From assembly GCA_030272155.1 (NCBI GenBank), contig CP126206.1:1984001-2048000 (forward strand): DNA of 64,000 nucleotides, given 5' to 3'. Under the pieces are notes generated by a model, which worked only from the letters and a program-made list of their open reading frames with translations, was not told the DNA's origin and did not search any database. The DNA comes from Tetradesmus obliquus. Lineage: Eukaryota > Chlorophyta > Chlorophyceae > Sphaeropleales > Scenedesmaceae. The translations under genes were made by a program, and so were the position numbers. This document shows, in pieces, positions 945 to 61,987 of the stretch (position 1 is the stretch's first letter; each line of letters opens with the position of its first letter).

Positions 945-2010
945 ATGCGTGCCAGCCCTGTGCTGCTGCAGAGGCCAGTTTCAGCAGCGTTCAAGCCCCA
1001 CTCGCTGCCCCGCTCGCAGCTCACCCGCAGTGGCGCTGTGATCGGAGCAGCAGGCAAAGCATGTGCGTTTTCTAGGCCTTTTCAACACAATCATGGCCTG
1101 CGTGGAGTGCCAGGGCAGCAGAGATCCCCGCTGCAGCGTGGAAGAACAGCCCAGGCTGCACCTATGCCGATGCCGGAAGGCCCTGGCGAAGGAACCAGCA
1201 CCAGCGTGCAGGAAACAGAGTCAACGGGCGAGTCAACGCTCAACGGCAGCGCGGCGCTGAGCAATGGCCGGTCAAATGGCACAGCAGCAGCAGGCAGCAG
1301 CCCAGACAGTGCAGCTGCAGAAGCAGGCGCAGCAGCAGTGCCGGCGCAGCAGGGCTTCATTGCGCACCGCTGGCGGATCGTGCTGATGATGTCCATGGCC
1401 TTTGTGCTCTGCAACATGGATAAGGTGCGATGCTTGGCTTGATTGAACAGTGTTCCTGCAGCACATTTGAACAGCACAGTGACAGATACGTCGAGCAGCA
1501 GGTGCAGCGCAACTAGCAGGCTGCAGAAGCCGCTGTGAATGCGGCAACTGATTGGACACAGCAGGTTCTATATGCATAAATGCATGCATCAGCACCCAGC
1601 GGCGCCAATGAGCACCCTTATTGCTGTCGGGCACGTTGTGTGTTCAACAACAATGGCTGCAGCAGCAGGGAGATCAGCACACCTACTCCTGTGCGCAGCA
1701 GCAGAGTTGCATCTGGACTTCGCCGCTCAACAGCAACGCCTTGTCCGCAGGCTTGTGAACAGCATACTGTGTGATGCTTAGGGGCCGTACACCAGTGAAA
1801 AGTAACACTCGTGCAGTGCCCTTCGTTAGTTGCACAACATGCAGGTCTGCACCACTGGCCCATTGCGCACACAGGCTCACAATGTACTGCTTCAATATCA
1901 GGGTTGCACTGTCAGCTGCATGGGTGTAAAAGAGACACAGCACAGTGCCCTGCTTGTGCTGCACATGCCACACAGCGCTGCTGCCCGCGGACTGACCTGC
2001 TGTTGCTGTG

Positions 2011-2061
<51 letters not shown>

Positions 2062-5000
2062 TCAACATGTCGGTGGCCGTCATCCCCATGGCGCGTGACC
2101 TGGGCTGGTCAGCCACTGAGCGCGGCCTGGTGTCGTCATCCTTCTTCTGGGGTTACTCCCTCACACAGGTCCCGGCAGGATACATCTCAACCAAGTAAGT
2201 GGAAGTAAACGCAACATGCTCACTCACCCGACTAAACAGCAACATAGGTGTGCGGCAACTGTGCAGCAGGCCTCTTGAGAGCGACGCGGTTGGTTGGCAA
2301 TTGTCAGATGTGTGCAGGCAGCAATCAGCAGTGTGCAGTTGTTGGTGCAGCAGCAGCAGCACAGCAGCAGCAGCAGCAGCAGCAGCCTGGGGATCTGTCT
2401 GGGGCCTGGTGTCGTCATCCTACTTCTGGGGTTACTCCCTCACACAGGTCCCCGCAGGCTACATCTCAACCAAGTGAGAAGCTGGACAGCAAAGCACCAC
2501 AACCTTTTCATACGTGCGGCAACTGCCGGCGGTGCTCTGCAAGCTGTGCAATATGCCAGCAGCAATTGGCCATCGGCATGTGCAGATCTCCGTAGTGCAG
2601 CAGCAGCAGCAGCAGCAGCCAATAGTGCCCTTGGGTATGGATCGCTGGCAACAACTTGCTTGTTCACACTTGGCTGCTGCTGCTGCTGTTGCTGCTGCAG
2701 GATTGGTGGTGTCAAAGTGCTCATGGCAGGCGTAGCGCTGTGGTCCTTTGGCACGCTCATTGCGCCGCCTGCAGCACACATGGGCATCTGGGCGCTGTGC
2801 GCAACACGCGTGCTGGTGAGTGCAGCAGCAGTAAAGTTGTGCTTGTGCCAAGGTCATGCGCACCAACAGCTGTCAGGTGCACCGCTGCAAGGGCCTACAG
2901 TACTGCTTGCAATGCTACTCGCGTCTGTAATTGCAATCCCGCTTGCATGTGCGCTACGCGCGTGCTGGCGAGTGCAGCCGTTGCCTTGCTTGTGGTGGAC
3001 TGCAGCGGCGTGACCTGTGTACTGTTGGTGTTGCTCTAGCTTCAGTTGTCGGACGTTTTTCCCCGTGGCTTCAGACGGCTGGTATTGCTGCTGTCCTTTG
3101 CTCGATTTGCTCGCTCGCTCACTGGCGTGCTTGATTGCTTCTTTGTTCAAATTGATCATGTCCGCGCTCTTGCTTTCATGCCACCCCCTTGCTGTGTACA
3201 GGTGGGCTTGGGTGAGGGCTTTGCCCCATCAGCAGCCACCAGCGTGCTCGCCTGGCAGGTGCCTCCCACCACACTCCTTCTTACGCTGCTCGCTTGTTGT
3301 CCTGCCTTGCTGTGTACAGGTGGGCCTGGGTGAAGGCTTTGCCCCCTCAGCAGCCACCAGCGTGCTCGCCTGGCAGGTGCCTCCCACCACACTCCTTCTT
3401 ACGCTGCTCGCTTGTTGCCCTGCCTTGCTGTGTACAGGTGGGCCTGGGTGAAGGCTTTGCCCCCTCAGCAGCCACCAGCGTGCTCGCCTGGCAGGTGCCT
3501 CCCACCACACTCCTTCTTACGCTGCTCGCTTGTTGTCCTGCCTTGCTGTGTACAGGTGGGCCTGGGTGAAGGCTTTGCCCCCGCAACAGCCACCAGCGTG
3601 CTCGCCTGGCAGGTGCCTCCCACCTTCCTCCTTTTTACGCTGCTCGCTTGTTGTCCTGCTGTGCTGTGTACAGGTGGGCTTGGGCGAAGGCTTTGCCCCC
3701 TCAGCAGCAACCAGCGTGCTCGCCTGGCAGGTGCCATCAACCGAGCGCTCCCGTGCCGTAACAACTGTGTGGGGAGGCCTGGATGTGGGCAGTGCAGTGG
3801 GGCTGCTGCTGAGCGGGCCGCTGATCAGGATGTACGGCTGGCCCAGCGTATTCTACCTGTTTGCGGTGCTGGGAGGCATCTGGTGCCTGCTGTGGCCTCT
3901 GGTGCGGCCAGGAATGCAGGTGAGACTGCAGGAGATGCAAATCCCGTGAAATCATAGTACAATCAGCAGAAATACGGCAAAATCAATCATTTGCATGTAC
4001 AGCTGGCCCAGCGTGTTCTCTGTGCTGGGCGGGATCTGGTTCCTGCTGTGGCCGCTGGTGCGGCCGGGCATGCAGGTGACAGCATTAGGTGGCATCAGAA
4101 GAAGTGTCAATAGTGTGGTATGTTTCTGGATGACACCTTGAATGTGTGTTAGCAGCATATCAAGCAGATGTTGAGCACAGGAGGTTTGGTGGGAATGAGG
4201 GTTCTATATCTGATGCTGTTTATGTTTCCTGCTTGCACCCCCAGGACCCTCTGCTGCAGGCGCAGAACGGAGCGGCAGCAAACCCGGGCGTGATCCGCGT
4301 GCCCACGCTGCCAGTAGGCGCAGAGGCCAGCAGCAGCGCAGCAACGTAAACACTCACCTCGTGCCGTTTCTCTTCACTCATCCTCCCAATGTTGCCTTGC
4401 AGGACTCGCTCATGCAGGTTGGCCTCTGCGCCGTCTCGATTCTGTTGCTTCTTCTGATCTCACAATTTTGGTGCTGTGTGCATGCTGACACCCCGCAGGA
4501 CCCCCTGATGCAGGCGCAGAACGCAGCAGCAGCCAACTCGGGCGTGATCCGCGTGCCCAAGCTGCCAGTAGGTGCAGAGGCCAGCAGCAGCGCAGCAGCA
4601 GCAGAGGCGATCGTAGATGCCAGGCTGGCAGCAGGCAGCATGGACGAGATGGACGAGCAGTTCAAGCAGCGCATAAAGGATGCAGCGAAAGCAGCAGGCG
4701 TGCCATATTCTAGCCCTGGCAGCAGCAGAAGTGGCTCCCCTAGCAGTCAATCAAGCAGCAGCAGCAGTGATCCGGCGCAGCCGCAGCAGCAGAAACAGCA
4801 GCCGCAGAAGCAGCAGCAGCCGCAACAGGGCGACAGGAGTGCTGTGGTGCCCTGGGGCGAGTTCTTCAAGAGCCCTCCCGTGTGGGCTGTGACTGTGGCT
4901 CACTTCTGCTTCAACTGGGGCTACTACACGCTGCTGGCGTGGCTGCCGAGTTACTTCGAGATGGCCCTGGGGCTCAACGTGCAGGTGAGGGAAGTTGCCT

Positions 5001-8000
5001 CTGATACAGCTCTTTCCTATAATTTTTTCTCATCATGTGTGTGTATGTGCATGGTGTACACCTGCTTGGGTTGGCTCACTGCTGCTTCAACTGGGGCTAC
5101 TACACGCTGCTGGCGTGGCTGCCGAGTTACTTCGAGATGGCCCTGGGGCTCAACGTGCAGGTGAGGGAAGTTGCCTCTGATACAGCTCTTTCCTATAATT
5201 TTTTCTCATCATGTGTGTGTATGTGCATGGTGTACACCTGCTTGGGTTGGCTCACTGCTGCTTCAACTGGGGCTACTACACGCTGCTGGCGTGGCTGCCG
5301 AGTTACTTCGAGATGGCTCTGGGGCTGAATGTGCAGGTGAGTTGATAGGTTATGTCATCGTTCATGTTGCGTACTGGTTGATTCTTTATTCTGAGATGGC
5401 GGTGGGGCAGAACGCGCAGGTCAGTTCGTGTTGTAATGACAGGGACGGCCGCAGTTCAGTGCAGTGCTTTTTGTGTGGGCTGTGACTGTGGCTCACTTCT
5501 GCTTCAACTGGGGCTAGTACACGCTGCTGGCCTGGCTGCCCAGCAATTTTGAGATGGCCCTGGTGCTCAACCTACAGGTGAGATTTAACACATATCATCA
5601 TAGCTTGCTTAACACCTGCTTGGGTTGGCTCACTTCTGCTTCAATTGGGGCTACTACACGCTGCTGGCGTGGCTGCCGAGTTACTTTGAGATGGCGCTGG
5701 GGCTCAACGTACAGGTAAGAGGAACGCGCCTGCAATTACAGCCCCTTTTGTGTGGCCAAAAGTGTGTTTTCCTTGTTTCATCGTGTGTTGGTGATTATGA
5801 TGTACACCTGCTTGACATGGTGCTGCTGCTTCAACTGGGGTTACTACACGCTGCTGGCGTGGCTGCCCAGCTACTTTGAGATGGCGCTGGGGCTCAACGT
5901 GCAGCTGCAAGCTTTTGCATTATCTAGCATTACTTGGTAGCAAACTGCCTCCACCGGGCATTCAGCACGGAAATAGACTGAACGTTTGGTCAACGCAGCC
6001 ATAGCCAGTCCTGCTGTCAAAGGCGACAGGGAGGTTGCCGTCAGCAGGCTTGGCGGTCAAAGGCCATGGACATTCGCCAGTTCTGTTTGCCAACTCTTGT
6101 TGTGTTGACTTGCTGCTGGACTGCAGGAGTCCAGCCTCCTTGTGCTTTGAGCCCTGTGTGCGACAACGCAGCTGGGGCCAGTTTCTAATCCACTTGCATG
6201 CGACCATTTCTGCTTCGGTATGCTGTTGAATCCCAATCTTGTTGGTTTGCTGATGCTTTGCAGGAGTCCAGCTTCCTCACGCTGATTCCTTACGTGGCCA
6301 TGATTGCAATGACGCCTGTGGTGAGTGAGATGAAATAACAAGCAGTGCCTCAGTTGATAGCTTGCAGGAAAGCATGGCGCTTGCAGGACACTGTGCAGCT
6401 TGCAGGCACTGTGCATGCGTGGAGGGAAGGGCTGCGCTTGCAGGACAGTGTGCAGCTTGCAGGAATACACTCGCACAAACCAGAAGTCTGACTGGGCCCA
6501 CGCTTACAGCCTTGTCAGAATGTCATAATCAGTCAGGACGTTGCGAATTGGAGGTGCAGCTCCAAGCAGTTGCCATCTCATGCCACTGTTAGTCACTCGG
6601 CGACCTGTCACTGTAATGTATGTCATCGTCATTTCCTGCCGATTTCTGCTGTAACAGGTCGGCCCTGTAGCGGACGGCCTGGTCAAGCGCGGCGTATCTC
6701 TCACCACAGTGCGCAAAATTGCACAAGGCCTGGCTTTCGTAATTCCTGCAGCCTGCATGGTGGCGTGTGCGCTGCTGACGCCGCCTGCTGGCGTGGCAGC
6801 TAATGTGCCTCTGCTGGTTGGTCTGCTGAGTGTGGGCTTTGCCTTTGGCGCGTGGAGCAGGGCAGGCCTGTACTGCAACCACCAGGTGGGTGGGACCAGT
6901 TTAGTTGTGTGGTTTTGGGGTTTCGATGCAGTGTTATGCGGCTGCTGGTGGGGCTGCTGTCGGTTGGCTTCGCCTTTGGCGCCTGGAGCAGGGCAGGGCT
7001 GTACTGCAACCACCAGGTGGGTGGGGCTAATGGTGCTGTGTGGTTTTGGGGTTTGTGGTTCAGTGTTGTGCAGTTGCTGGTTGGGCTGCTGAGCGTCGGG
7101 TTTTTGTTTGGCGCCTTGAGCAGGGCAGGGCTGTACTGCAACCACCAGGTGCGGCCTTGTGGTTGTGTTTTATGGGTTTGTTTTGGATGGAGAAGTGCTG
7201 AAGGGGTTGCTGGTTGGTCTGCTGTCGGTTGGCTTTGCGTCTCGCGCTTGGGCAGGGCGGGACTGCACTGCAGACACCATTCACAGCCACCTGGTGCTGG
7301 TCAACAGCTGGTCGACAGCTGGTCAACAGCTGGTCGACAGCTGGTCGACAGCTGGTCAACAGCTGGTCGACAGCTGCTCAACAGCTGGTCGACAGCTGGT
7401 CAACAGCTGGCCAACACCGAGGTTTGCACATGCATCTGTCTGTGGATATGTCCTTCATCTCACGTGCGGTACGTAGATGCCACCCTGCAGCACCTGCCTC
7501 ATATAGTGTTGGCCGCTGCCCTCCTTTGTCGTTTTGCAGGACCTGTCGACCAAGTATGTTAGCGCTCTGCTGGGCATCACCAACACAGCAGGAGCCTTAC
7601 AATTCAAACTCTTCTCTGCAGACTCAACCCAACAATTATATATGTATCATACTTTGTGGTTGCAGGACCTGCCGCTCAAGTACGCGAGCGCGCTGCTAGG
7701 CATCACCAACACAGCAGGAGCCATCCCTGGAGTGCTAGGTGTCACTTCGACCATCATGTCAACATGTTCCGATGCTGTTTTGTTTTGCAGGACCTGTCTC
7801 CCAAGTATGCCAGCGCGCTGCTGGGCATCACCAACACAGCAGGAGCCATCCCTGGAGTGCTGGGCGTCACATCAGCAGGCTACCTGCTGGATGCAACATC
7901 AAGCTGGCAGCTGGCGCTGTTCCTGCCGACAGCAGCATTCCAGCTGCTAGGTGCGGCCTTCTACAGCATCTTTGCCAGCAGCGAGCGCCAGTCCTGGAGC

Positions 8001-8003
8001 TGA
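945..8003 (+). CDS. Plastid PHT4/ANTR-type phosphate (anion) transporter, MFS
   Basis: This is a major facilitator carrier of the SLC17/PHT4 family, whose plant members move phosphate or other anions across plastid membranes. Modelled exons are 945-1424, 2061-2194, 2701-2815, 3674-3919, 4499-4984, 6264-6320, 6658-6885 and 7791-8003. Phases agree throughout and give 652 residues. Residues 1 to about 75 are Ser/Arg/Ala-rich like a transit peptide. The first membrane segment reads RIVLMMSMAFVLCNMDK and continues VNMSVAVIPMARDLGW; later family marks are VPSTERSRA, GWPSVFY, VRKIAQ, GLYCNHQ and GITNTAGAIPGVLG. The central loop (about residues 326-440) is a long Gln/Ser-rich insertion. The ATG at 945 is chosen because it heads the exon that carries the presequence. 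The substrate cannot be read from the sequence; phosphate is the family default. Introns are crowded with exon-edge copies, listed separately. Confidence 0.88.
2405..2475 (+). repeat. Donor-side copy of PHT4-type exon 2
   Basis: The last 24 codons of exon 2 (GLVSSS to GYISTK) recur here nearly unchanged, followed by GTGAGA. No copy of the first half of the exon or of its acceptor is present. A shorter copy of the exon 3 end (ACGCGCGTGCTGG) lies at about 2949-2975. Confidence 0.8.
3202..3739 (+). repeat. Five 118-bp units carrying the start of PHT4-type exon 4
   Basis: Units begin at 3202, 3320, 3438, 3556 and 3674, exactly 118 bp apart. Each has a CAG acceptor and the codons VGLGEGFAPSAATSVLAWQ followed by VP. 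Only the fifth runs on into the full exon; the first four break off after about 23 codons into intron-like sequence ending in TGTGTACAG. Each unit also has a GT after the Gln codon that could act as a weak donor and make an in-frame 57-nt cassette. Confidence 0.92.
3994..4075 (+). repeat. Donor-side copy of PHT4-type exon 4 end
   Basis: This segment repeats the last roughly 90 bp of exon 4 (MYGWPSVF to RPGMQ) with a small deletion and ends in CAG/GTGACA. It starts about 75 bp after the real donor at 3919. Confidence 0.8.
4245..4416 (+). repeat. Two acceptor-side copies of PHT4-type exon 5 start
   Basis: Positions 4245-4347 follow a CCCCCAG acceptor and repeat the first 34 codons of exon 5 (DPLLQAQNGAAANPG onward). 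A 15-bp remnant after TTGCAG lies at 4402-4416. The working exon starts at 4499. Confidence 0.8.
4985..5906 (+). repeat. Six donor-side copies of PHT4-type exon 5 end
   Basis: Units 4985-5160 and 5161-5336 are 176 bp each and almost identical. Each contains intron start plus the exon tail CFNWGYYTLLAWLPSYFEM to GLNVQ and a new donor. Further copies end near 5420 (badly decayed), 5577 (with an in-frame TAG), 5715 and 5906. None keeps an acceptor, so they behave as alternative exon ends or as debris. Confidence 0.9.
6886..7290 (+). repeat. Three donor-side copies of PHT4-type exon 7 end
   Basis: With a period of about 131 bp the exon tail LLVGLLSVGFAFGAWSRAG to CNHQ recurs, ending at 7016 and 7148 with donor-like GTGGGT or GTGCGG. 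The third copy, up to about 7290, is more decayed. A short acceptor-side remnant of exon 6 lies at 6128-6145. Confidence 0.85.
7297..7411 (+). repeat. 11-bp minisatellite (GTC[A/G]ACAGCTG)n
   Basis: About ten head-to-tail units alternate between GTCAACAGCTG and GTCGACAGCTG in intron 7 of the transporter, directly after the exon 7 copies. Confidence 0.9.
7541..7739 (+). repeat. Two acceptor-side copies of PHT4-type exon 8 start
   Basis: Copies at 7541-7599 and 7668-7739 follow TTTTGCAG and TTGCAG. They repeat the opening of exon 8 (DLSPKYASALLGITNTAGA, partly further) before leaving the reading frame of the real exon, which starts at 7791. Confidence 0.88.
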
Positions 8004-8270
8004 GTTGGCTCAACTCAGCTCGCGAGCTGAGAGTTGAGCTGGGCTGGGCTGAGCACGTGTTGCATTTGATAGGTGCTGCCTTCCTGCAGCATCTGTGCCA
8101 GCAGCGAGCACCGGCACTGGAGTTGAGCCAGCTCGTCTCAGCTCAGCTGGCGAGCTGAGTTGATGAGGGTTGAGTCCGGCTGAACACGCGTTGCAGGTTC
8201 TTGAGGCGGCATGGTGCAGCATCTTGGCACGCAGCAAGTGCCAGCGCTGGAGCTGAGTCGATGCTGAGGA
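8004..8270 (+). repeat. Copies of the last coding bases in the PHT4-type 3' UTR
   Basis: Segments near 8071-8125 and 8204-8255 resemble the end of the reading frame (GGTGCGGCCTTCTACAGCAT to CTGGAGCTGA), with GAGCTGAG-rich sequence between. The exon-edge copying thus also affects an end that is not a splice site. Confidence 0.65.
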
Positions 8271-13815: not shown

Positions 13816-13880
<65 letters not shown>

Positions 13881-16051: not shown

Positions 16052-16459
16052 TTACACAAGCCATAAAACACCTGCAAGGCCTCCAATTGAGCCAGCAAAA
16101 ACAGCTATATGTAGAGAATCAATAGCTCTACGACACTGGCAGTGCGGCGGTTGCAGGAACACCACTTGGTGTTGCACATGGCAGGTGCAGGCCACAGGCC
16201 TGTGCAGCATAGGCTACTGCCGTGGCTTCCTTGACACGTAGTTGAGTTCAAAAGGTACCAAGATACTGTGCAAGGTGTGTTTCACGCCGGTACACTGTTG
16301 CAATTCAATGTACTACACGGTGATATTACTGTGCAGTACCATGATACTGCTGAAGTCTTTCAGCGCCGTCATGACCAGATACTTTACAAAATGTGCATCA
16401 CGTCAGTTTCATGTTGCAGTGCCCAACATCCAACATACTGTTGAAGCCTTGCAGCGCCA

Positions 16460-17299
16460 TTTTGGCAACGCGACCTGCTTATGCGGTGCCTGGCAGACAT
16501 TGGCTTGCGGGGCAATGTGCTTGCATCTATCGTTTCTATGTACTGGAATGCGCCTATGATCACTAAGTTGTCAGGCAGAGTTGGGCAGCCCTTTGACAGT
16601 ACTCGTGGTGTGAAGCAAGGCGATCCACTATCGCCTCTGCTGTTTGGCATATTCATCGATCGAGTGGAGCAATGGCTAGCCGACCGCTGTGGTGCGTGTG
16701 GCACGGCTCTGGGCAGCAGAATGGTGAGACTGCTGCTGTATGCTGATGACCTGGTGCTGCTAGCAGAAACAGCCGGCAAACTACAGCAGCTGCTGGATGC
16801 CCTGCAATCATTTTGTAGCGAGTATGACATGCAGGTTAATGTGGGTAAGACAGAAGTAGTTGTGTTTGACAGGAAGCGCTACAGCGGTGCAGCAGTGTGG
16901 CAGTACCAGGGGCAGCAGGTTCCGGTGTCACAGCAGTTCAGGTACTTGGGCGTCCAGTTCCATTCCACTCAGGGTGTGTTTGTTTGCACTGATGCTCTGG
17001 CTGCAGCTGGTAGTAGAGCGATGTGGGCTATGCTGGCCAGATGCAAGGAGCATGGCATTCGCAGTTTGTCAATGCAGGTGCAGCTGTTCAACTCTCTTGT
17101 GTCTCCAATTCTGTGCTACTGTTCCGAAGTGTGGGGTCCAGCCCTGCTGAGCCAGGCGGGCTCGGGTGCTGCTTTGGTCAGCAAGTTGCAGAACAATGTC
17201 ATCAGCAGGGTGCAGTTCACGTTTCTGCGTACACTTGCAGGACGCGTCCGCAAGTCCATTGCTCGCTTGCTTCTGTCAAGAGAATTTGGGGCCCAGCCT
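16460..17299 (+). mobile_element. LINE (non-LTR retrotransposon), 5'-truncated, left part
   Basis: The reading frame enters in the reverse transcriptase at about QRDLLMRCLADIGLRG and shows GVKQGDPLSPLLFG and YADDLVLLAE, the latter holding the catalytic aspartates. It runs to LLSREFGAQP, where the 12.1-kb gypsy-type element begins. The first RT blocks, any endonuclease and ORF1 are missing, so the copy was already 5'-truncated. The bases just upstream (16254-16465) are two diverged tandem copies of a roughly 100-bp segment and not part of the LINE. Confidence 0.88.
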
Positions 17300-18270: not shown

Positions 18271-18579
18271 ACTACGCTGTTCTGCGTCCAAACAAGCAAT
18301 ACTAGGGCTGCTACGTGCCCAATGCGTGCATGGTGGGTGACTCAGCCCGTGGGCCAGTAACGCGGTCTCGAAGCACTTTGCCTACAGGTCCGCTGCACCA
18401 CACACTAGAGTTAATTCAGCAACAAGCACGCGCTGTTACCAGTGAACTCGCTCTTGTTGACAGCAGCCACGAGCCAGGCACTTTGCAAGACAGTGATCCT
18501 GTGTCTCCCTGCTCCTCCCTCTCGCTTGAGCAAGAAACACCAACACGCGTTTACCACAACCCGTACTTCAATCCAGGCA

Positions 18580-26920: not shown

Positions 26921-26951
26921 AGACCCCACACTGGCAGACAAACCTGCTGAG

Positions 26952-32935: not shown

Positions 32936-32972
<37 letters not shown>

Positions 32973-35817: not shown

Positions 35818-35848
<31 letters not shown>

Positions 35849-37912: not shown

Positions 37913-37960
<48 letters not shown>

Positions 37961-39378: not shown

Positions 39379-39432
<54 letters not shown>

Positions 39433-43716: not shown

Positions 43717-43747
<31 letters not shown>

Positions 43748-48772: not shown

Positions 48773-49651
48773 TCACTGCTGCTCAGGAGGCACAAAGCCA
48801 AAGTTGAGGTACGCCGCGCGCGCATCGCACCGCGTGACATACGAGATGTACAGCTCCTCCCCAGCCGCCAGCACCAGCTGCTGCTGCTGCTGCTGGGATT
48901 CTGCTTTAGGAGGCCTGCAAACACACCACAAGCCTTGAATAGGCTCCTGATAGGATGCGAATGCTTCTGTGCCCTCGGCATCATTGTCTGAATCTGATTC
49001 TGAGCTGGGTTCAAATGATGACATGGCACGCCCTGCTGCTGCTGCTGCCAGCAGTGACTGCAGTGGCAGCTGGCCTGCTGCTGCTGCTGAGCTGGGTTTT
49101 GCTGCTGCTGCTGCCGCTGCCAAGCTTGCTTCTGCTGATGCCTGTTGGGCTGGCACTGTCAGCAGCCGGGGTGTGCCACAACCCTGGAGTGCAGTGATGT
49201 ACCGGCAGCAGCAGCAACAGCAGCAGCAGCACAGGTCAGCACTGTAACAACACCCAGTGTTCAAGTTTTGTGCACCACAAAAGTGCTGCCCCGTTGTGGT
49301 CATGCACCTGCCTTCACCAAACGCAACAAACAACATAGCCAGTGTGCACAGCTCGAATGCACAAACTCTAAAACCTTGAAACCCACCATCTAGTGGTGAG
49401 CTGCATACACCAGCTAATGCACAAACTCAAAAACCTTAAAACCCACCAGCTTGTGGTTCAGCATGTCGATGAGGGGAGCAAACGCCACAGTTTTGCGGTC
49501 GCCAAAAGCCCGGGACACCACCTGCCCATAGGCCCACACAATATCATCTGCATCAATGCAGCCGCCAAGCGCAGGCCCATACATGGCTGCTGCTGCGCTG
49601 CACTTTGAAACCACTGCTGCAGCTGCTGCAGCGAGCTCGTCATGTGAAATC

Positions 49652-49695
<44 letters not shown>

Positions 49696-50541
49696 GTGCT
49701 GGTGCTGCTGCTGGTGCTGGTGCTGGTGCTGCTGGTGCTGCTGCTGCTGCTGCTCCAGGGCTGGGAACCAGCCGCAGGATGGCTCTTCAGGCAAGCTGTC
49801 AATGTATGGGTGCCAGAAAGAGCGCTGGCCCTTACTGCGCTCAAAAGCAAGCAGCAGCGCCAGCAGCAGAGCCGGCTGCAGCCGCTGCAGCGACTCTGCT
49901 AGCTGCTGCTGCTGCTGCTGCTGTTGGGCTGCTGCTGCTAGGGGATTACAACGCGCCAGCAGCTGCTGTAATGCTCCTGCAGGGGTGCCAGCAGTGCTGG
50001 GTGTGACCTGGCTGTCTCGCTGCTGCTGCTGCTGCTGCTGCTGCTTCTGCATGATGGCTGTGCCAAGTATGTCTAGTGCATCATATGTTGTCATGTAAAG
50101 CTCCTCTGGTACAGCAATGAGCGGCAGCGGCAGCTGCTGCTGCTGCTGCTGCTGCTGCTGCACTGTTGCCACCTCAGCTGCCTGGTGCTGCTGTGCTGGC
50201 ATGCGAATGTCACTGACAGCAACCACGCCGCGGCAACCACAAGGAGCGTTATCAACAACTGCAAGTGCAGGGTGCACATAGCCGTTGTTCCGTCGAACCC
50301 ATTCGAACAATGGGTGCTGGTGATAGCCTGCTGCTGGCCCTGCTGATGCTGTCTCTCCTGCTGGTGCGATTGTCGCTTGCGAAGCGAGATCTACCGCAGC
50401 AACTGAAGTTTGAACCGCAGAAAAGTGGCTTTTGAGGCGTCTTATGTGCACAGGTGCCCTCAGCGAGCGGCAATTGTTGGAGTTGAGCAACGAGTCAGGG
50501 ACACGCTGGTGGGTTCGCAGCTGCTCCATGCTGCACTGCAT
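48773..50541 (-). CDS. SET-domain protein lysine methyltransferase, Rubisco LSMT type
   Basis: These enzymes methylate lysines on plastid or cytosolic proteins using S-adenosylmethionine. Two exons fit: 49447-50541 and 48773-49183, giving 501 residues. The first 70 residues look like a plastid presequence. Family marks are LFEWVRRNNGYVHPALAVV, GCRGVVAVSDI, VPEELYMTT, LAFERSKGQRSFWHPYIDS, DDIVWAYGQVVSRAFG, FAPLIDMLNHK (SET NH block) and GEELYISYVTR with YLNFGFVPPE (SET end). Poly-Gln and His/Gln insertions break the domain, and an Ala-rich, acidic insertion of about 80 residues sits between the NH block and GEELYISY. The usual Rubisco-substrate-binding C-terminal domain is missing in this model, so either the protein is short or further exons lie downstream. 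A donor-side edge copy is at 49325-49395. Confidence 0.75.
49660..50160. repeat. CTG tracts coding poly-Gln and Gln/His in the SET gene
   Basis: Several tracts (49650-49755, 49901-49923, 50021-50045 and 50133-50162) read CAG/CAC on the coding strand and insert Gln or His runs within the SET domain without breaking the frame. Confidence 0.9.
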
Positions 50542-52493: not shown

Positions 52494-54184
52494 TCACTGG
52501 CCTGCGGGCTCCTCTGTCACCTGCCGCAGCGAGGTGCGCGCCTGCTTGATCTCGTTCAGCGAGGGCTGGTGGCCCTCCAGCTGCTTTGCCCTGCAGGCAG
52601 TGAGGCGGCAGACAGGTAAGTCACACACAGCAGCAGATGAAATGTTTCGGCGAGGGCTGGTGGCCCTCCAGCTGCTTCGCCCTGCAGGCAGCAGAACAGG
52701 CCAAGTCACACACTTTGATAATGTTGGGATGAGAAGGATCAGCTTCGCCCTGCCTGCTTCGCCCTGCAGGCAGTAAAGCAGCGAGCAGGTAAGTCGCACA
52801 CATCAGTAGATGAAATGTTTCAGCCAGGGCTGGTGGCCCTCCAGCTGCTTCGCCCTGCAGGCAGCAGCACAGCAGAGGGCACAAGGCTGTTAGTATCAAA
52901 AGGCGTTCAGCGAGGGCTGGTGGCCCTGCAGCTGCACTACTCACAACGCATGCAAGCTTGGGCGGGCTCAGGATCTCCTCAGTCATCGCGTTCAGCGGGT
53001 CCTCCACCACGCGCATGAACAAAGAAGCGAAACCACCATCCCATGCAATACACTCGTGAGCATACACTCGCTAACACACACCAACCCCCATGCGCACCGG
53101 CCCCGCCTCAACTGGCGCAGCAGCAGGTTGCGCGGCCATGAAAGGGTTGCAGGGGTTGCCGGCAGCACCACAACACACAACTAGAACCCACACAAATCGC
53201 TAATAACAAGCACTAGATAGCAGCAGCATTGCAGAACTCACTTGGACTTGGGAGGGCCCAGGATTTCCTCAGTCAGCGCATTCAGCAGGTCGTCCGCCAT
53301 GCGCACAACCAACCCACAGTCTTAAACACCAGCCAAACAGCCTGATGCCACAGCAACAGAACTCACTTGGACTTGGGAGGGCCCAGAATATCTTCAGTCA
53401 GGGCGTTCAGCGGGTCGTCCGCCATGCGCATCAGGCCCGCCTCAACCGGTGCTGCAGGGGCTGGCGGCAGCACCACACAACACTACTGAAACCCATACAA
53501 ATCACCAGTAATAAGCACTAAACAGCAGCACCACTGTAGCACTCACTTTGAGTTGGGTGGGCCCAGGATCTCCTCAGTTAGGGCATTCAGCGGGTCGTCC
53601 GCCATGCGCACCGGGCCCGCCTCAACCGGCGCAGCAGCGGGTGGCGTGGCAAGAAAGGGGTTGAAGGGGTTGCCAGCTGCCTTACAAATAAAAGAGTAAA
53701 TCCCACTCACAACAACCAATAACAAGCACTAAGCAGCAGCACCATTGCAGCGCTCACTTGGACTTAGGTGGGCCCAGGATCTCCTCAGTCAGCGCATTCA
53801 GCGGGTCGTCCGCCATGCGCACCGGGCCCGCCTCAACTGGTGCTGCAGGGGCTGGCGTGGCCAGGAAGGGGTTGAAGGGGTTGCCGGCAGCACCACAAAA
53901 CACAACAAAACTACAACCCACACAAATCACCCATACTAAACACCAGATAGCAGCACCATTGCAGAACTCACTTGGACTTGGGTGGGCCCAGGATCTCCTC
54001 AGTCAGCGCATTCAGCGGGTCATCCGCCATGCGCACCGGCCCCGCCTCAACCGGCGCAGCAGCAGGTGGTGTAGCCAGGAAGGGGTTGAAGGGGTTGGCA
54101 GCGCCCGTGGGCCCTGCTGCTGCGGGGCCGCCAAAGGGGCCCATGCCGTACGGCACCAGCGCCATGTTCATGCCCATGGGGCCT

Positions 54185-54237
<53 letters not shown>

Positions 54238-54562
54238 GCAGCAAGACAATCACATCTCAGACATGTCACAGGTCAAGATGCTGGGCCGCCAAAGGGGCCC
54301 ATGCCGTACGGCACCAGCGCCATGTTCATGCCCATGGGGCCTGCAGCAGCAGCAGCAGCAGCAACAGCAAATCAAGGGGTCAGCTGCCGTATGTGCAGGC
54401 CCATGCCGTATGGCACCAGCGCCATGTTCATGCCCATCTGCTGTGAAGAAAGCAGCAGCAGCAGGACAGTAAGACGCCACACATGCCACAGGTCAGATGC
54501 GGGGCCGCCAAAGGGGCCCATGCCGTATGGCACCAGTGCCATGTTCATGCCCATGGGGCCTG

Positions 54563-54594
<32 letters not shown>

Positions 54595-54823
54595 GCAAAG
54601 CAATGGGTCAGATGCCGGATGTGTGGGCCCATGCCGTACGGCACCAGCGCCATGTTCATGCCCATGAGGCCTGAAGAAAGCAGCCGCAGCAGCAGCAGCA
54701 GCAGCAGCAGCAGTGCAGCAAGACAATCACATCCCAGACATGTCACAGGTCAAGATGCGGGGCCTCCAAAGGGGCCCATGACGTATGGCACCAGCGCAAC
54801 GTTCATGCCCATGGGGCCTGAGG

Positions 54824-54869
<46 letters not shown>

Positions 54870-56754
54870 AGCAGGGCATTAGACGGCCTGAAGAGATCCT
54901 GGTTGCACCAGCTGGAGTAGCAGCAAAGGCAGCAGCAGTAAAAGGCGCATCCGCTGTTTCTGGATGCCATGGTTTGGCGCTGCAGACAGCACTCAGCAAC
55001 CACACGCCGCACACAGATCACTCACCGACAGGCACGAGAGCCATGCTGTTTGCGCCGGTGGGCCCTGCATACGCGGGGTGCATGAAGGGGTTGCCGTAGG
55101 GGTCCATGCCCATGCCCGGGTAGTGTCCGGTGCACAGCCCCTCAATCGTACTCTTACAATGGCTAAAGCACAGCAGCTAGACGCCACGAGACGCATCACA
55201 AAAGAAGATGTGTCTGTCAACAACAAATCCTCAAACACACACTCACCGACAGGCACGAGCGCCATGCTGTTTGCGCCGGTGGGCCCTGCGTAGGCCGGGT
55301 GCATTTAGGGGTTGCCGTACGGGTCCCATGCATTGCGCACATCACGCAGCAACCAGGCACCTCAGAAGCAGCACACATACACACAAACACTCACCGACAG
55401 GCACGAGGGCCATGCTGTTTGCACCAGTGGGCCCTGCGTAGGGCGGGTGCATGAAGGGGTTGCCGTACGGGTCCCATGCATTGCGCACAGCACGCAGCAA
55501 CTAGCCACATCAGGAACAGCACACATACACACAAACACTCACCGACAGGCACGAGAGCCATGCTATTTGCGCCAGTAGGCCCCGCATAGGCCGGGTGCAT
55601 GAAGGGGTTGCCGTAGGGGTCCATGCCCATGCCCGGGTGGCGTCCGCTGCACAGCCCCCAAATCGTACTCTTACATTGGCTAACGAACGGACAGTGACAA
55701 CATGCTGCAAGACCACCACAAACGACACACCCACACTTGCACAGCTCACCGACAGGCACGAGAGCCATGCTGTTTGCGCCGGTGGGCCCTGCATACGCGG
55801 GGTGCATGAAGGGGTTGCCGTAGGGGTCCATGCCCATGCCTGGGCAGCCGCTCTTAAGCAGCCTGCCTGGGCAGCCGCCAATCCACACACGCTTCACACG
55901 TACTATTGCGCTGGCCAACGCACAGAAGCAGGAGCACCACACACCACACTCACACATACACAACTCACCGACAGGCACGAGAGCCATGCTGTTTGCGCCG
56001 GTGGGCCCTGCATACGCGGGGTGCATGAAGGGGTTGCCGTAGGGGTCCATGCCCATGCCCGGGTAGCCGCCCTGCATGGGGTAGCCGCCCTGCATGGGGT
56101 AGCCGCCGGTGGGCCCTGCGTACGGCCCGTACGGGTTGGGCTGGCCGTACATGCCGTAAGGGTTGGGGCCTGCAGCAACAGACAAAAGAAATGGAACATC
56201 AGCAGGGGTTGACGTGCTGCGTACGGCCCGTACGGGTTGGGCTGGCTGTACATGCCGTACGGGCTGGGGCCTGCGGCAGACACAACACGTGTGCATTATT
56301 AGTAAGGGTCGCGTGCTGTGCACAGATCGTGTTGGGGCTGCGCTGGCCGTACATGCCGTACGGGTTGGGGCCTGCGGCGACAGGCAATACTTTTCTGAAA
56401 TCACAGCAAGAGTTGTGCGCTGTGCACAGACCGCCACAGACCGCCACGATAGAATCAATGCACACCTTGTAGGAGCCTTGCTAGCCCACAGCCCGCAGGC
56501 ACAGCCTCAACCCACAGCCACCCCACTGCAGCTGGGAACCCTGCTGCCAACCACGTACCTGGCTGCTGCTGCATGGCTGCTGCGCCGTCTGCCCCGAACG
56601 CCGCCGGTTCGCCAAAGCCGTCCTGCTGCTGCTGCTGTGCTGCGTTGTTCATGCCGTCTGCCAGGAAGTCCAGTTCGCCCTTGGGGGCAGGCGGAGGGGG
56701 TACTGATGTGGGCGCTGCAGCAGCAAAAGCGGGCGGGCGGGCGGGCGGCAGCCG

Positions 56755-56799
<45 letters not shown>

Positions 56800-59700
56800 C
56801 AGCAGCAGCAGCAGCAGCAGGAGCAGCAGCAGCAGCAGGCTTGTCAGAAAAGAGTAAGAGAGCAGGCAGGGAACACAGTCAGCTCGCCCTTGGGGTCAGG
56901 CGAGAGGGTGCAGCCGACACATGTGTAATAGCAAAACAGCAAATTCAGGAAAATCAGGCGGCCGCAGCAGCAGATGCTGCGTCAGCAATAGCAAGGCAAC
57001 ACAACACCAGCACACTGGGCAGTGAACGCAAACAAGTCAACCAAAGCCAGCCTTTTTTTGTCCAACAACAACACAGGGTGTGAAACGTTGTGCTTGGGGA
57101 TTAGCACCAGCCTCACCTGGCGCATCATCATCAAAGCTCAGCAGGTCAATCTCCGGCATCTTGGGAGCAGCAGCAGCAGCAGCAGCAGCGGCAGCAGCCG
57201 CTGCAGCAGCAGCTGCTGCTGCCGCCTCCTCCTCAGCCTGCTGCTGCTGCTGCTGGCTAGGGCTGCCAGGTGCGCGCAGCTCGCCTGGAGGCGTCGATAT
57301 CGAGTGCGCGCCGCCTGCGAATGCGCTGCTGGTGGTGCCGCCACGTGCTGCCATGCTGCTCACGCTGCATTGATAGAAGAAAAGCAACAAAGCTTCAGTC
57401 AGTACACGGGATTAGCATCCTGTATTTGCCGTGGGCAACTGCCGCTGTTTCCGAGTTCGGCAGCAGCACTTTGTGCAGTGCGACAAGCCAGGTTGCTGCG
57501 CCATGCAAAAACTCATAATCAACAGTGCTTTTTACTCACGTGTTGCCTGCCAGCAGCCCAGCGCCACCGCGCCGCGGGCTGCCTGCCCCAGCGCTCTTGG
57601 GGACCAGCCCCTTGGGCACCTCACGCACGTGATCCTCACTCACCCTCAAAACCAACAAACAATGCACACAACTGCCTCAGAGGGCATATGTGTATAAACA
57701 CACACACTCACGTGTTGGCTGCCAACGGGCCCGCGCCGCCACGCCGCGGGCTGCCTGCCCCAGCTGCATTCAGGTCCAGCCCCTTGGGCGCCTCGCGCAC
57801 GTACTCCATGGCCGCCACAACCATTCCACACAAGCCTCCCACACAACCACCCCCAACACACATGCATGGCCAGCAAGATATGTCATGGTACCAACTGAAA
57901 GATAAGCAATTGCATACAATATTCCAAGGAATCAAGCGTGTTTTGTACTCACGTGTTGCCTGCCAATGGGCCCGCGCCGCCACGCCGCGGGCTGCCTGCC
58001 CCAGCAGCATTGGGGTCCAGCCCCTTGGGCGCCTCGCGCACATACTCCTCCATTGCCGTGAGGAAGTCGGCCGGCAGCGGTGCCAGCTGCGGGTACTGGA
58101 TGATGTTGCTGCAGCAAGTCGAATGCGTGAGGTGTATACAGTGCACACCACACAGCTTGTCAGTGACAGCATGCAAGGCAAGATGTGCGAGATTTGGCCG
58201 GCAGCGGCGCCAGCTGCAAGTACTGGATGATGTTGCTGCAACAATCAAATTGCATACATACACGTGCACACCGCACAGCTTGTCAGTGAAGGCGCCACCA
58301 ACGTTTCCACAGCAGGGCATCATCCGTCTGTCGAGGAGCCTTGCACATAGCACGGCACGCCCATTGTCTACGGCTTGCTGCTGCAACCCTCAGTGGCTTC
58401 AGTGGCTGCAGCACAATACGATACAACACAAGCCAAACAATAAAGGCAAAGCACGGTGAGCCTCACCGCAGCGCAGGCAGGTTCTGCATGGCCGCGTAGT
58501 ATGCGTTGAGGCGCTCGCACAGCGCCAGGTTGTCCTTGTACAGCTCGATGCCCTGGCGGCAGCAGCAGCAACAACAGCAGGAGTCAGACACAGCAGGTCA
58601 GATATTAGCGCAGCACTGGAGGTTAACCATCTGGATTTCACTTGCTGGCTGTGACTGCTCAGCATTGTCTGCTGTTGTGCCGTTACGCAGTGCCGCTTGG
58701 CTGGCGCGTAGCTGCAGCTACTGCTGCTTCTCACTTGTACGAAATGCACACCAGCCTCATCAGAGCTGCCAGTCGCACCTGCAGCGCCTGTGCGCGCTCC
58801 ATCTCGAAGAACTTGTCTGCCAGATTCATCACGCCTTCGCTAGCCGCCTTGTACACGGAGCGGCTCTCCTTGAGCACCCAGGAGCACGACGTCTGCACAA
58901 GCAGCAGCAGCAGCACAACAGGCATGGAAAAAGGCAAACGCGGGGATGCAACGGCCACATAAAGACACCAGAGGGAGACGACTGCAAAAGGCTGCAACAA
59001 AGCAGCAACTGCAGCGCACCAGGCTGTTGGGGTGCGCCGCGGCAGCGCCTCCCAACACACACATCAGCAGCCAGCCCACGAGCCGCGGGCTACTGCAAGA
59101 AACTGCAACACTGACTACCGACAAGACAGCCAGACAACAGCCAAATCTGCTGACACAACTGCAGCGCACCAGGATGATTGGGTGTGCTGACGCTGCGCCC
59201 TCAGGAATGCACATCAGCAGCCGCCCCATCAGCCGCTGCATGCGCGGCAGGTGCTGCAGCAGCTCAGGAGTGGCACAGTCCTTCAGCTTGATGCTGGCAG
59301 TGGCCTGTGGGGGTGCTGCTGCTGCTGCTGCTGCTGCTGCTCCGCCTGGCGCTCCACCATAAGAGCCGTAGCCGTTGGCGCCTGAAGCAGCCGCAGGAAC
59401 AGTATGCCAAGCATGCTGTGTGATGGGATTGGAGCTGTACACTGTTATGCCGAAACTGCTGAGCACTGGATGATGCAATGCGCTGCTGGTACAACTTGAT
59501 TGCTGCAGGCAGCTGCGTATTTGGGTGCCCACCTACACCCTAGTGCACGCCCGCATGCCATACGGCTTCAACTAGCAGCTGATATTGCAACTGCAGCAAA
59601 ACCCATCCCTGCCGCTCTGACCACACCCTTGCTGCTGCTGCTGCTGCTGCGGTGGCGGCGGCTCCGGTAATCTTGCACGCCGGCACATTCATACAGTCAA

Positions 59701-59968
59701 GAGCCGCTTACTCCAGAAGCGAGCAAGCGTGGCGCACGTACAGCTACACACATCCTCCTGCTCACCTGTCGGCCCTCCATACAGACCTCCAGTGGGGCCG
59801 CCATACGGCGCCCCAGTAGGTCCACCGTAAGCTGGCCCATATGCGCCCGTTGGCCCGCCATACGGCCCTGCTGCTGCTCCTGCGCCAGTGGGCCCCCCAT
59901 ATGGGCCCTGTGCGCCATAGCCGCCTGTTGCTCCTGCTGCCGAGCCGTTTGCATAGCCACCGGCCATC

Positions 59969-60000
<32 letters not shown>

Positions 60001-61987
60001 CGCTGGCGTGGCTACGTTGCCCTCTGGGTCAAAGCGCATCGTCCTGCAAGCATGCCGCAACAGCCAAAGCACATACGATAGCAGCAGCTGTCAGAAACAA
60101 AGCAGCTCTGGCAACATCAGAGACAATGTCTGGACTGTTGGAACAGGTGCTGGAGGCTTCCTGCTACACGCTCTTCAGCCGCTGAACATGCTGCTGCAAC
60201 CAACCAGCTGCTGCTATATGCACACCTGCAGCTGCTGCCACTGCACCCTTGCACGTGGACCTACTCATACACTGCTGCCTCCACGCACCACACCAAGCAG
60301 TCACTGCTACACCTCTGCCGCTGCTGCCAAGGCACCGCTATTGTACTGATATTCAAAAATGCTGCTACTGCTGCCGCGCCGCACACCTACCTGTACACGT
60401 CCAGGCGCTCATTGCGGTACATGGAGTACACGCTGCGACCCTTGCTGCTGTTATCAGGACTCTCTATGGCTGCTCATACAGCTCAAGGTATTGCTGCGCC
60501 GTACCTGTACACGTCCAGGCGCTCGTTGAGGTACATGGAGTACACGCGCACCCAGGCGCTGTAGTCCCATGCATCCTTGCTGCTGTGGTCTGCGAAGCGG
60601 TCCAGCGCCAGCATGTGGTGCCGCCCCGTGCGGTCCGCAAAGCGCAGCATCTGCACATCACAGCGCAAACACGCTGCAGCTTCACAATGCATGTGATGCT
60701 TGCAGGACTGGGCCGCAGCAGCATGCAGTACTGTTGTGCAGCATCTGCCGCTGATCAGTATATCAGGGCATGCTATATGCACCTGCACTCACAGCAGCCT
60801 GTGGAAGGTCGCCAGCTGCTGCTGCTGCCTCTCAACCACAGTCTGCACTTATTCAATTAAAATGCTTGCAGGACAAGGTGTGCAGTGACAACTATGCTGG
60901 CCGCACCTGCTCCTGGAAGCTGGGGTCGCACTCGTGCACCACTCTACTGCTGCATCTGTGTGCAAGTCAACGTCATGCTTCTGCTACTCGAAATGCTTGC
61001 ATGCTGCTACTCAACCCACAGCCGCACCTGCTCCTGGAAGCTGGGGTCGCACTCGCGCAGCAGCCTGTGGAAGGTCATGGCGCTCTTGAGCACCACCAGC
61101 CAGCTGGGGTTGGACAGCCGCTTGCCCAGCTTGTAGATGACGTACTCCACAGTGTGGCGCGGGCTGTGCGCGCTGCACGCGATGCGCAGCGCTGTAGAAT
61201 GTTCGCAGGACAGATGTTTGCAGGACAGGTGTTGGAGGGCGGCGGGAGGCCAGACAGTGGTTGGAGCATGCAGGGTGATGGGAGAGCAGGATGGGGCATG
61301 GGTTGAGCATTGTGAAAGCGTGCAAGGGGGAAGGTTTGACAAGGTGATGAGTGTGCTGCCAGTGCTATTGCTGTTGCTAGCAGTGCTGAGAGGTGCTGCA
61401 GCTGCTGGGCAGCCTGGACAAAAGTCTTTGATTGGCCTGATGCATATAGCATGCTCTTAATCACTGATCGCCAAGCTGCTAATATTGGAGTTATCCCCTT
61501 GTTCTCCTGGCATCTGCACCAGCACTGAGGCAGAACTGAATGCCCTGCTGCTGCTCAGGTACTGCTCTGCTTCTGGCGCAGTGTCCTAGCCTGCTCACTT
61601 CTGACATGCTTCTCCTTTGGAACCACTTCATCAGGCAGAGTAGCCTTTGTTACTGCCACATAGAGGTCCTGGTGGTGCAGCAGTCGAGCGTGATAGCATA
61701 TGATTCAGGCAACGAGGCAGAGGAAGCCAGGCAACAGAACAACAGACAGGCTGGTTACACAGCTGCATGCCGTCACCGCTCACAATACTGTATACTTAAT
61801 TTCAATAAATCGTGACGTATTTCAACAGCTCGTCTTGGTGGTGGCAACCATACAGCCTGCTGGATGCGCTGAGAGCGTGTGTGCATCCTATGCAGGCCCG
61901 CTGTCCTACAGCTCCTCGTGTTACCTGCGTCTCCTCGCCCTTCACTGCTGCTACTGCAAGTTTTGCTTTGTCTTTGGCTAGCGCCAT
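52494..61987 (-). CDS. ANTH-domain clathrin coat assembly protein (AP180/CALM type)
   Basis: ANTH proteins bind PtdIns(4,5)P2 and recruit clathrin during endocytosis. In transcript order exons are 61925-61987, 61599-61668, 61028-61191, 60505-60650, 59766-60043, 59170-59381, 58779-58892, 58467-58552, 57953-58108, 57117-57364, 56559-56714, 55969-56169, 53972-54182 and 52494-52590; phases agree and give 733 residues. ANTH marks are VTKATLPDEVVPKEKHVR, LVVLKSAMTFHRLLRECDP, WVRVYSMYLNERLDVYR, ELLQHLPRMQRLMGRLL, WVLKESRSVYKAASEG and LADKFFEMERAQAL. A Gln- and YGGPTG-rich insertion of about 110 residues splits the domain. The tail holds a clathrin-box-like DLLSFDD and NPF motifs (GNPFMHP, ANPFNPF) for EH-domain partners, as expected for an adaptor. 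The start MALAKDKAKLAVAAVKGEE is short and basic, as in the family. Confidence 0.88.
52640..52940 (-). repeat. Four acceptor-side copies of ANTH-gene exon 14 start
   Basis: On the minus strand the text AKQLEGHQPxL after CTGCAG recurs near 52649-52690, 52736-52777 (shortened), 52816-52865 and 52908-52940, upstream of the working last exon at 52494-52590. Confidence 0.85.
52960..53888 (-). repeat. Six donor-side copies of ANTH-gene exon 13 end
   Basis: Copies at about 53756-53888, 53547-53672, 53366-53462, 53243-53311, 53115-53163 and 52960-53010 repeat parts of NPFNPFLATPPAAAPVEAG to DDPLNALTEEILGPPK. Nearer copies keep the GTGAG donor; distant ones are shorter and more diverged. Confidence 0.9.
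54286..54820 (-). repeat. Five acceptor-side copies of ANTH-gene exon 13 start
   Basis: Copies at about 54286-54343, 54398-54437, 54505-54562, 54626-54671 and 54763-54820 repeat PMGMNMALVPYGMGPFGGP. Most follow a CTG tract on the minus strand that ends in CAG. The working exon is 53972-54182. Confidence 0.92.
55023..55866 (-). repeat. Five donor-side copies of ANTH-gene exon 12 end
   Basis: Copies near 55746-55843, 55544-55640, 55396-55475, 55245-55325 and 55028-55122 repeat GMGMDPYGNPFMHPAYAG and PTGANSMALVPVG, followed by GTGAG. Two copies lack the GMGMD part. Confidence 0.9.
56215..56376 (-). repeat. Two acceptor-side copies of ANTH-gene exon 12 start
   Basis: Copies at 56215-56271 and 56331-56376 follow CCGCAG on the minus strand and repeat GPNPYGMYGQPNPYGPYA, partly. 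Confidence 0.85.
56752..57250. repeat. CAG tracts in and before ANTH-gene exon 10
   Basis: The tract at 56752-56840 reads CTG in the sense direction and lies upstream of the exon 11 acceptor. The tract at 57165-57255 lies in exon 10 and encodes poly-Ala and poly-Gln. Confidence 0.85.
57537..58235 (-). repeat. Edge copies on both sides of ANTH-gene exon 9
   Basis: An acceptor-side copy at 58192-58235 repeats NIIQYLQLAPLPA. Donor-side copies at 57712-57818 and 57537-57636 repeat YVREAPKGLD to GGAGPLAGNT with GTGAGT donors; the farther one is more diverged. Confidence 0.88.
59016..60935 (-). repeat. Donor-side copies of ANTH-gene exons 3, 4 and 6
   Basis: The exon 3 end (ECDPSFQEQ) recurs at 60903-60935, the exon 4 end (YSMYRNERLDVYR) at 60388-60435 and the exon 6 end (LLMCVLGGAAAAHPNSL) at 59016-59082. 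All are downstream of the working exon and keep a GT. Confidence 0.85.

Follow-up and report, generated by a model that had tools for sequence, protein, structure and literature searches.

Local intragenic duplication is one described route to a new intron: in the AGGT tandem-duplication model the extra copy is spliced out, and in the potato RdRp case the duplicated piece spans an intron–exon boundary (cited passages of PMC4974935). Introners shape introns genome-wide, those of algae included (cited passages of PMC9860276), whereas in staggered-break repair, as proposed for intron gain in Daphnia, direct repeats flank the inserted sequence (cited passages of PMC3443670). Intronic minisatellites, in turn, are tandem arrays in non-coding DNA. 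Here we analyze 64 kb of nuclear DNA of the green alga Tetradesmus obliquus (C16:1984001-2048000, hereafter the window; the assembly comprises 104,662,953 bases in 17 contigs), in which about half of the splice edges tested recur as partial copies in the adjoining intron. The window resembles each of these systems in part: the copied pieces span exon–intron boundaries, direct repeats flank other sequence, the layout recurs widely in the genome, and minisatellites are present as well.

Gene models were built by reading the coding strand in all three frames over the gene regions. Five genes were modeled, with 44 exons (median 149 bp) and 39 introns (median 444 bp), all of them GT..AG and with 0 internal stops. 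Each splice edge was searched against its own neighboring intron; CTG/GCA triplet runs were masked in this search and in the diagonal and BLAST repeat scans described below. We found 89 local copies at 41 of the 78 splice edges, 76 of which reach the junction (at 38 edges), and at least one copy is present in 28 of the 39 introns. The preliminary description of this DNA had reported more than thirty exon borders copied into the next intron, which these counts bear out. Its extension to all five genes needs a correction for gene 4: the 41 copied edges belong to genes 1, 2, 3 and 5, and in gene 4 one splice edge of two is copied. That edge, the exon 1 donor, and the exon 6 acceptor of gene 1 are two further copied edges found by other scans.

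Several controls were applied to these copies. The edge's own intron outscored every compared intron of other genes, in some cases narrowly, for 21 of 39 acceptors and 23 of 39 donors (44/78), and the same was true of 5/78 edges when the reverse complement of the own intron served as target. As had been claimed, acceptor edges have their copies upstream and donor edges have theirs downstream, in each case on the intron side; on the wrong side of the exon a score of at least 20 was reached by only 4 of the 78 edges, in exons of 56–201 bp. This orientation rule follows almost from geometry for any edge copy that is tolerated. Stop-codon edges are also copied, donor-like, into the 3′ flank (2/4; start edges, 0/4), and therefore the rule is not limited to splice sites and concerns the edge of the coding sequence, beyond splicing alone. 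AG is retained in 32/32 acceptor copies and GT in 38/44 donor copies, and to judge from these kept dinucleotides the copies are possible competing splice sites. In line with the intron growth proposed in the preliminary description, introns with copies are longer (median 523 bp, n = 28) than those without (337 bp, n = 11), and repeats, nearly all tied to exon edges, cover 10,697 of the 21,976 intron bases of the five genes.

Two transcript-like proteins bear on the fate of the copies. Gene 1 (945–8003, + strand) is an MFS anion/phosphate-type transporter gene of 8 exons (945-1424, 2061-2194, 2701-2815, 3674-3919, 4499-4984, 6264-6320, 6658-6885 and 7791-8003; MFS_1 E 3e-47). It is matched by protein P0081 at a listed 100% identity over the searched part, with at least one residue differing on inspection. 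Gene 2 (32060–40242, +) is a MATE transporter gene with 12 modeled exons (32838-40242; MatE E 3e-49), and alignment of its 99% identical match P0001 revealed an extra first exon outside the model (32060-32230, +). Both proteins come from a collection labeled 'lgn', which we take to be the Logan assemblies of public reads. The longest contigs behind them measure 3,572 bases (P0081) and 2,639 bases (P0001), far shorter than genes 1 and 2, which span more than 7 kb, so that they look like complementary DNA. Every modeled exon is present once in P0081 and P0001, except for ~75 N-terminal residues of gene 1 that are absent from P0081. Because these two proteins hold each exon once, the edge copies are very likely removed by splicing, a conclusion drawn from these two genes.

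The other models vary in their support. The gene 1 protein also matches P0082 of Scenedesmus sp. NREL 46B-D3 (96% identity over 42%), and gene 5 (52494–61987, −; 14 exons) encodes an ANTH-domain clathrin assembly protein (ANTH E 4e-54) with 97% identity to T. obliquus protein P0202 over 59% of its length. In genes 1, 2 and 5 the Pfam domains span splice joints. Gene 3 (41439–45911, +; partial, 8 exons, 333 amino acids) is phosphodiesterase-like by eye only, and gene 4 (48773–50541, −; two exons modeled) is SET/Rubisco-methyltransferase-like by eye only. Neither has a Pfam match (for gene 3 at E 0.001), and gene 3 is likewise without a convincing PDB match.

Repeats were also detected independently of annotation, by scanning every diagonal across the window for spacings of 8–1299 bp. 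BLAST self-comparison under-reports short spacings, and its apparent lower limit of ~80–100 bp is partly an artefact; the diagonal scan thus supersedes the BLAST clusters for edge anchoring, while the young-pair, flank and spacer tests are still BLAST-based. Both the edge anchoring and a peak at 100–160 bp persist in the diagonal scan. The spacing of 50–200 bp given earlier is accordingly corrected to this peak. The window holds 56 clusters, of which 41 touch an exon edge, 6 are intron-only, 7 are intergenic, 1 lies in or beside a transposon and 1 is exon-only. Exon edges are touched by 38 of the 40 clusters that are spaced at least 85 bp; of the remaining two, one is intron-only and adjoins an edge copy, and the other is intergenic. 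The 16 clusters below 85 bp are mostly minisatellites; 3 of them touch edges, one being an 18-bp repeat within an exon. When same-length pieces were placed at random, with placements that destroy an exon excluded, 7.5 of the genic clusters of at least 85 bp were expected to touch an exon, with a maximum of 16 in 2000 simulations; 36 of 37 do so. The earlier BLAST-cluster version of this test, now superseded, gave 32/32 genic clusters with an exon against 8.5 expected. The smallest spacing is at least 102 bp in 37 of the 41 edge clusters, whereas five intron-only minisatellite clusters are spaced 11–76 bp. Minisatellite units would be placed regardless of exon edges, unlike the 38 of 40 wider clusters; the edge copies, spaced more widely and tied to exon edges, are a class separate from intronic minisatellites.

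The youngest copies have a distinctive shape. In L025, one of the further stretches sampled from the genome (see below), the first 40 bp of an exon that is proteasome alpha-type by eye, together with the preceding CAG, recur identically 126 bp upstream, and the 83 bp between the identical pieces are unrelated. L021 (32 bp) and L024 (65 bp, within a larger cluster) are alike, and the L024 piece extends two bases past the junction into the intron. At an identity of 95% or more there are seven single pairs, of which L016 is a 50-bp minisatellite and L029 runs off its stretch (match/spacing 0.61). The other five keep at least 95% identity over 32–61 bp with 79–151 bp of other sequence between (in L027, a CAG run), and their match/spacing ratios are 0.28–0.40, where head-to-tail duplication would give ~1. 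Over 17 BLAST pairs the median extent of the match is 58 bp on the exon side and 14 bp on the intron side, and the exon side is the longer in 13 of them (p = 0.022). Two spacers searched across the whole genome matched only at their own places, in a search that skips very common words; by this evidence these two are not a mobile family. Among neighboring spacers in arrays, 14 of 36 pairs show homology and 22 do not, a mix that would fit independent copyings followed by amplification. Clean arrays traced by eye, at the exon 4 acceptor and exon 5 donor of gene 1, start and finish with an edge piece.

The differences between copies and working edges are arranged by codon position. Sites at which all copies agree against the working edge number 3/1/24 at codon positions 1/2/3, so that the edge joined to the exon is protected, as the preliminary description supposed. 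The copies, for their part, have not decayed in a simply neutral way from birth. Over all 89 copies the differences number 110/116/376; with one (the nearest) copy per edge they are 40/42/146, a ratio of 3.6 (2.7–4.8), and for single-copy edges the ratio is 3.0 (2.0–4.7). Neutral simulation of copies beside a protected exon gave 1.83–1.98, and silent evolution of the working exon itself is thus probably insufficient as the sole source of the third-position excess. In the 29 copies with an alignable intron part, divergence is 0.149 in the intron, 0.179 at third positions and 0.034 at first and second positions. First and second positions therefore changed at 0.23 (0.15–0.35) of the rate of the homologous intron where 0.5 is expected, which suggests that the copies have been free for only about half of the time since parting. 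Introns in these 29 copies diverged no faster than third positions, and we rejected the idea that introns decay too fast to show intron-only repeats. Bases common to at least two copies against the working edge number 5/3/57, and bases private to one copy 39/53/116. The third-position pattern runs counter to relics decaying from birth; its simplest reading is that divergence began while both sequences were coding, as alleles, and that the copy was made later, with a coding role kept by the copies as the competing reading. The claimed decay with distance appears weakly within edges, where the nearer copy is more similar in 46 of 69 comparisons, but not over copies as a whole (Spearman 0.10, p = 0.41, n = 76).

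The layout extends beyond the window. In 19 further 10-kb stretches at arbitrary positions, drawn from all 17 contigs, the diagonal scan found 162 clusters, with smallest spacings of 100–160 bp in 88 and below 100 bp in 41; as a null, the same scan at offsets of 2000–2411 bp gave 2 matches. We then compared, without annotation, the coding score outside each repeat pair with that of its spacer. Of 91 BLAST clusters below 600 bp, 73 were usable once 13 arrays and 5 clusters at the ends of stretches had been set aside. The outer flank is more coding than the spacer in 65 of the 73 (Wilcoxon p = 1.6e-10), and 35 of these 65 have an outer score that is also above the 90th percentile for introns. 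This is the orientation rule seen without annotation, and the 65 supporting clusters are spread over 15 of the 17 contigs, in agreement with the genome-wide mode that had been proposed. Mismatches in the further stretches show slight three-periodicity (best phase 494/1001 against 463 permuted, maximum 492 in 1000); so slight a signal would be expected were it diluted by pieces of intron. The layout is widespread, not universal. Four of ten short MATE-matching loci, which include one in the window, are without a cluster, and two MFS genes (L033 and L034) have four clusters each, by eye at the ends of protein-matched cores. Genes contrast sharply in this respect, as the MATE paralogues L031 and L032 have no edge copies.

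Based on these findings, we see an even chance that recurrent edge-anchored local copying, together with unequal exchange between copies, put the repeats into the introns. The primary product would be an s–spacer–s structure, in which s comprises ~30–90 bp of exon plus a few intron bases and would reappear ~100–160 bp away on the intron side with different sequence between. Exchange between the direct repeats would then amplify s–spacer units into clean arrays. Splicing would skip the copies, which would thereby add intron length. The copying step would be repair or recombination with a template from the same gene, often a diverged allele, because the differences that several copies have in common fall almost entirely at third codon positions. 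For a piece that ends at the splice site, a template linked to the transcript or to splicing would be a candidate. CTG/GCA triplet runs often stand just before the acceptor CAG, in working exons and copies alike, and might seed copying.

Several observations weigh against recurrent edge-anchored copying. From the sequences, either the copy or the spacer may have been inserted. Several of the youngest copies show no difference from the working edge, so that a diverged allele is not needed. In gene 1 exon 5 (+176) and gene 3 exon 5 (+102) the units are clean and head-to-tail, with the intron part as similar as the exon part, and such arrays fit plain tandem duplication; 7 of the 14 copies with exon identity of at least 95% show intron-side similarity above control. 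Within the window the flank test gives just 24/31, the sampled stretches of contigs C2 and C3 give no supporting cluster, and no cluster at all was found in the two MATE paralogues or in stretch L030.

Plain neutral tandem duplication of random segments, among which edge-spanning ones keep one protected copy and stay recognizable, is the strongest competitor; we regard it as unlikely, with an appreciable share of the probability nonetheless. It accounts for the clean arrays at some edges (118, 176 and 102 bp), for the protection of the working copy and for the somewhat greater similarity of nearer copies. Random duplication is disfavored because it should leave many intron-only repeats of the same spacing, whereas these make up 1 of 37 genic clusters even though introns, in the 29 alignable copies, diverge no faster than third positions. 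Nor does it explain the differing spacers of the youngest copies or the asymmetry between exon and intron sides. On these grounds, and given the match/spacing ratios of the youngest pairs, we depart from the preliminary description, which had invoked plain repeated tandem duplication.

A bolder version of edge-anchored copying is that the genome keeps producing splice-bounded copies of exon ends through an edge-recognizing process, probably by way of the transcript or splicing machinery, and that the copies are temporarily coding-competent spares which recombination can swap back. We hold this to be less likely again; if true, introns would grow, and silent variation would arise, in a new, edge-directed way.

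It is doubtful, more so than either of the foregoing, that the copies are coding-competent alternative edges, now or recently used in other transcripts, and a past coding role would itself tell against edge-anchored copying as we propose it. The protection of first and second positions relative to the intron (0.034 against 0.149 in the 29 copies) speaks for such use, as do the scarcity of gaps in the coding part (12/76 copies) and the retention of splice dinucleotides in 70/76. However, the exon-side end of the copies lacks an excess of AG (11/44 against 12.0 by chance) or GT (4/32 against 7.5), and a copy is therefore not joinable to the exon body by ordinary splicing. Moreover, P0081 and P0001 contain no copies (two genes only), and bases private to one copy also strike positions 1 and 2.

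That the spacers are short introner-like mobile elements, with the copied edge as a long target-site duplication, appears very improbable. The s–spacer–s layout would suit it, and introners do make introns in some algae (cited passages of PMC9860276). Nevertheless, two spacers are confined to their own places in the genome search, 0 matches of score at least 24 were found between window parts more than 1.5 kb apart, and introner target-site duplications measure 3–9 bp (same passages) against 30–90 bp here. An assembly artefact, in which merged haplotypes or read errors expanded the edges, could account for highly identical copies and for third-position differences that resemble allelic ones, but is scarcely credible when, in an assembly of 104.7 Mb in 17 contigs, 62 of the 76 junction-reaching copies differ by >5% from the working edge, neighboring spacers lack homology in 22 of 36 cases and the pattern is tied to exon edges.

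The individual copied edges are distributed as follows. In gene 1 (+), the exon 2 donor edge has a downstream copy at +279 bp (2124–2557), and the exon 4 acceptor edge is preceded by four acceptor-bearing copies in a clean 118-bp array (3165–3742), while the donor of the same exon has a copy at +156 (3858–4079). The exon 5 acceptor has a copy 254 bp upstream (4230–4591); its donor is followed by six donor-side copies (4880–5936), in which the first two spacers are identical and later ones are not homologous to their neighbors. The short copy 137 bp upstream of the exon 6 acceptor (6103–6277) was missed by the exon-anchored search. Three copies accompany the exon 7 donor (6804–7279), two lie upstream of the exon 8 acceptor (7524–7873), and the stop-codon edge has copies in the 3′ flank (7921–8258). 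In gene 2 (+), single copies accompany the exon 2 acceptor (33207–33460), the exon 4 donor (at +106; 35255–35418) and the exon 5 acceptor (121 bp upstream; 35559–35777). Exon 3 has two acceptor-bearing copies upstream and three donor-side copies downstream (34170–35011), and the exon 6 donor has five copies (36148–36973), whose common differences fall mostly at third codon positions. The exon 7 donor copy is 98% identical over 42 bp (37484–37649) and the exon 8 donor copy matches perfectly across 40 bp of exon sequence and 12 bp of intron sequence (37992–38170), both with an unrelated spacer. Exon 9 has two donor copies (38457–38860) and a short acceptor copy 90 bp upstream of the exon, and two copies lie upstream of the exon 12 acceptor (39758–40121).

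In gene 3 (+), exon 3 has three acceptor-bearing copies upstream and donor-edge copies downstream (42375–43191), exon 5 is preceded at 77 bp by a short acceptor copy and followed by two donor copies in a clean 102-bp array (43609–44101), and exon 6 has three acceptor-bearing copies upstream and one donor-bearing copy downstream (44207–44967); donor copies of exon 7 and acceptor copies of exon 8 follow (45221–45862). In gene 4 (−), the exon 1 donor edge and its copy are 60 bp apart (49356–49457), and the stop-codon edge has a downstream copy (48366–48831). In gene 5 (−), upstream copies accompany the acceptors of exon 14 (52553–52935) and exon 13 (54121–54824), and the exon 13 donor has six donor-side copies, four of which reach the junction (52928–54102). 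Two acceptor copies lie upstream and five donor copies downstream of exon 12 (54978–56433); among the donor copies, two are identical in the exon part and three differ mostly at third codon positions. The peptide encoded by this copied edge of exon 12 (within 54121-56433, −) contains NPF, is rich in proline and glycine and is nearly unchanged in the five donor copies, and a variable-repeat isoform is conceivable from this near-constancy. Exon 9 has donor copies and an acceptor copy (57517–58289). Single donor copies accompany exon 6 (58947–59236), exon 4 (at 114 bp; 60388–60562) and exon 3 (95% over 42 bp, with a 79-bp spacer; 60900–61062).

The window also contains retroelements. A long terminal repeat (LTR) retrotransposon frame of Gypsy type (18306-27485, +) has reverse transcriptase, RNase H and integrase domains, and a C-5 cytosine methylase domain as well (E 1.2e-6); after it, a separate frame encodes a PHD finger (E 1.3e-9). 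Edge-type BLAST repeats occupy 0 of 12,700 bases in the transposon, where the diagonal scan found only a 20-bp repeat just before the frame. A reverse-transcriptase frame at 16445-17302 (+; RVT_1 E 2.6e-21) and, 12 kb on, a frame without a Pfam match that is C-terminal-like by eye (29271-30386, +) may be pieces of a second retroelement, as if split by the Gypsy element between them.

Intron growth is usually inferred from transposons and rare duplications, whereas here copies of many ages are present, from which the starting point, template and rate of the process could be read directly. The process may also help to account for the greater intron length published for Tetradesmus than for other green algae: the mean is 462 bp in T. 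obliquus against 230, 302, 284 and 270 bp in four others (PMC5966456, Table 1, from the part of that source cited here), which agrees with a swelling of introns by these copies. Introns are also long in Chlamydomonas and its relatives, and the passages of PMC8226300 that we cite do not mention edge copies. In practice, duplicated splice sites can mislead gene predictors and short-read mappers, and they offer a natural test of how the spliceosome ignores near-perfect decoys ~100 bp away.

We found no precedent for recurrent edge copying in the literature searched, which left out most subscription journals and all preprints, and the cited passages on the nearest systems (PMC4974935, PMC3443670 and PMC9860276) contain no recurrent edge copying into existing introns. 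Introners place one element in many unrelated genes, whereas the repeated sequence here is the host exon edge, different at each; a shared family was not seen, either in matches across the window (0) or in the two spacers unique genome-wide. Compared with staggered-break repair, the direct repeats here measure 30–90 bp, tend to stop close to the splice consensus, and belong to an intron that already exists. In the AGGT model the duplicated segment is bounded by AG|GT, its two copies thereby providing both splice sites of the new intron, whereas AG and GT at the exon-side end occur here no more often than by chance (11/44 and 4/32, as above), and the youngest copies are not head-to-tail. Unlike in that model, moreover, the copying recurs at about half of the tested edges, and what seems to take place is growth of existing introns, not the gain of new ones.

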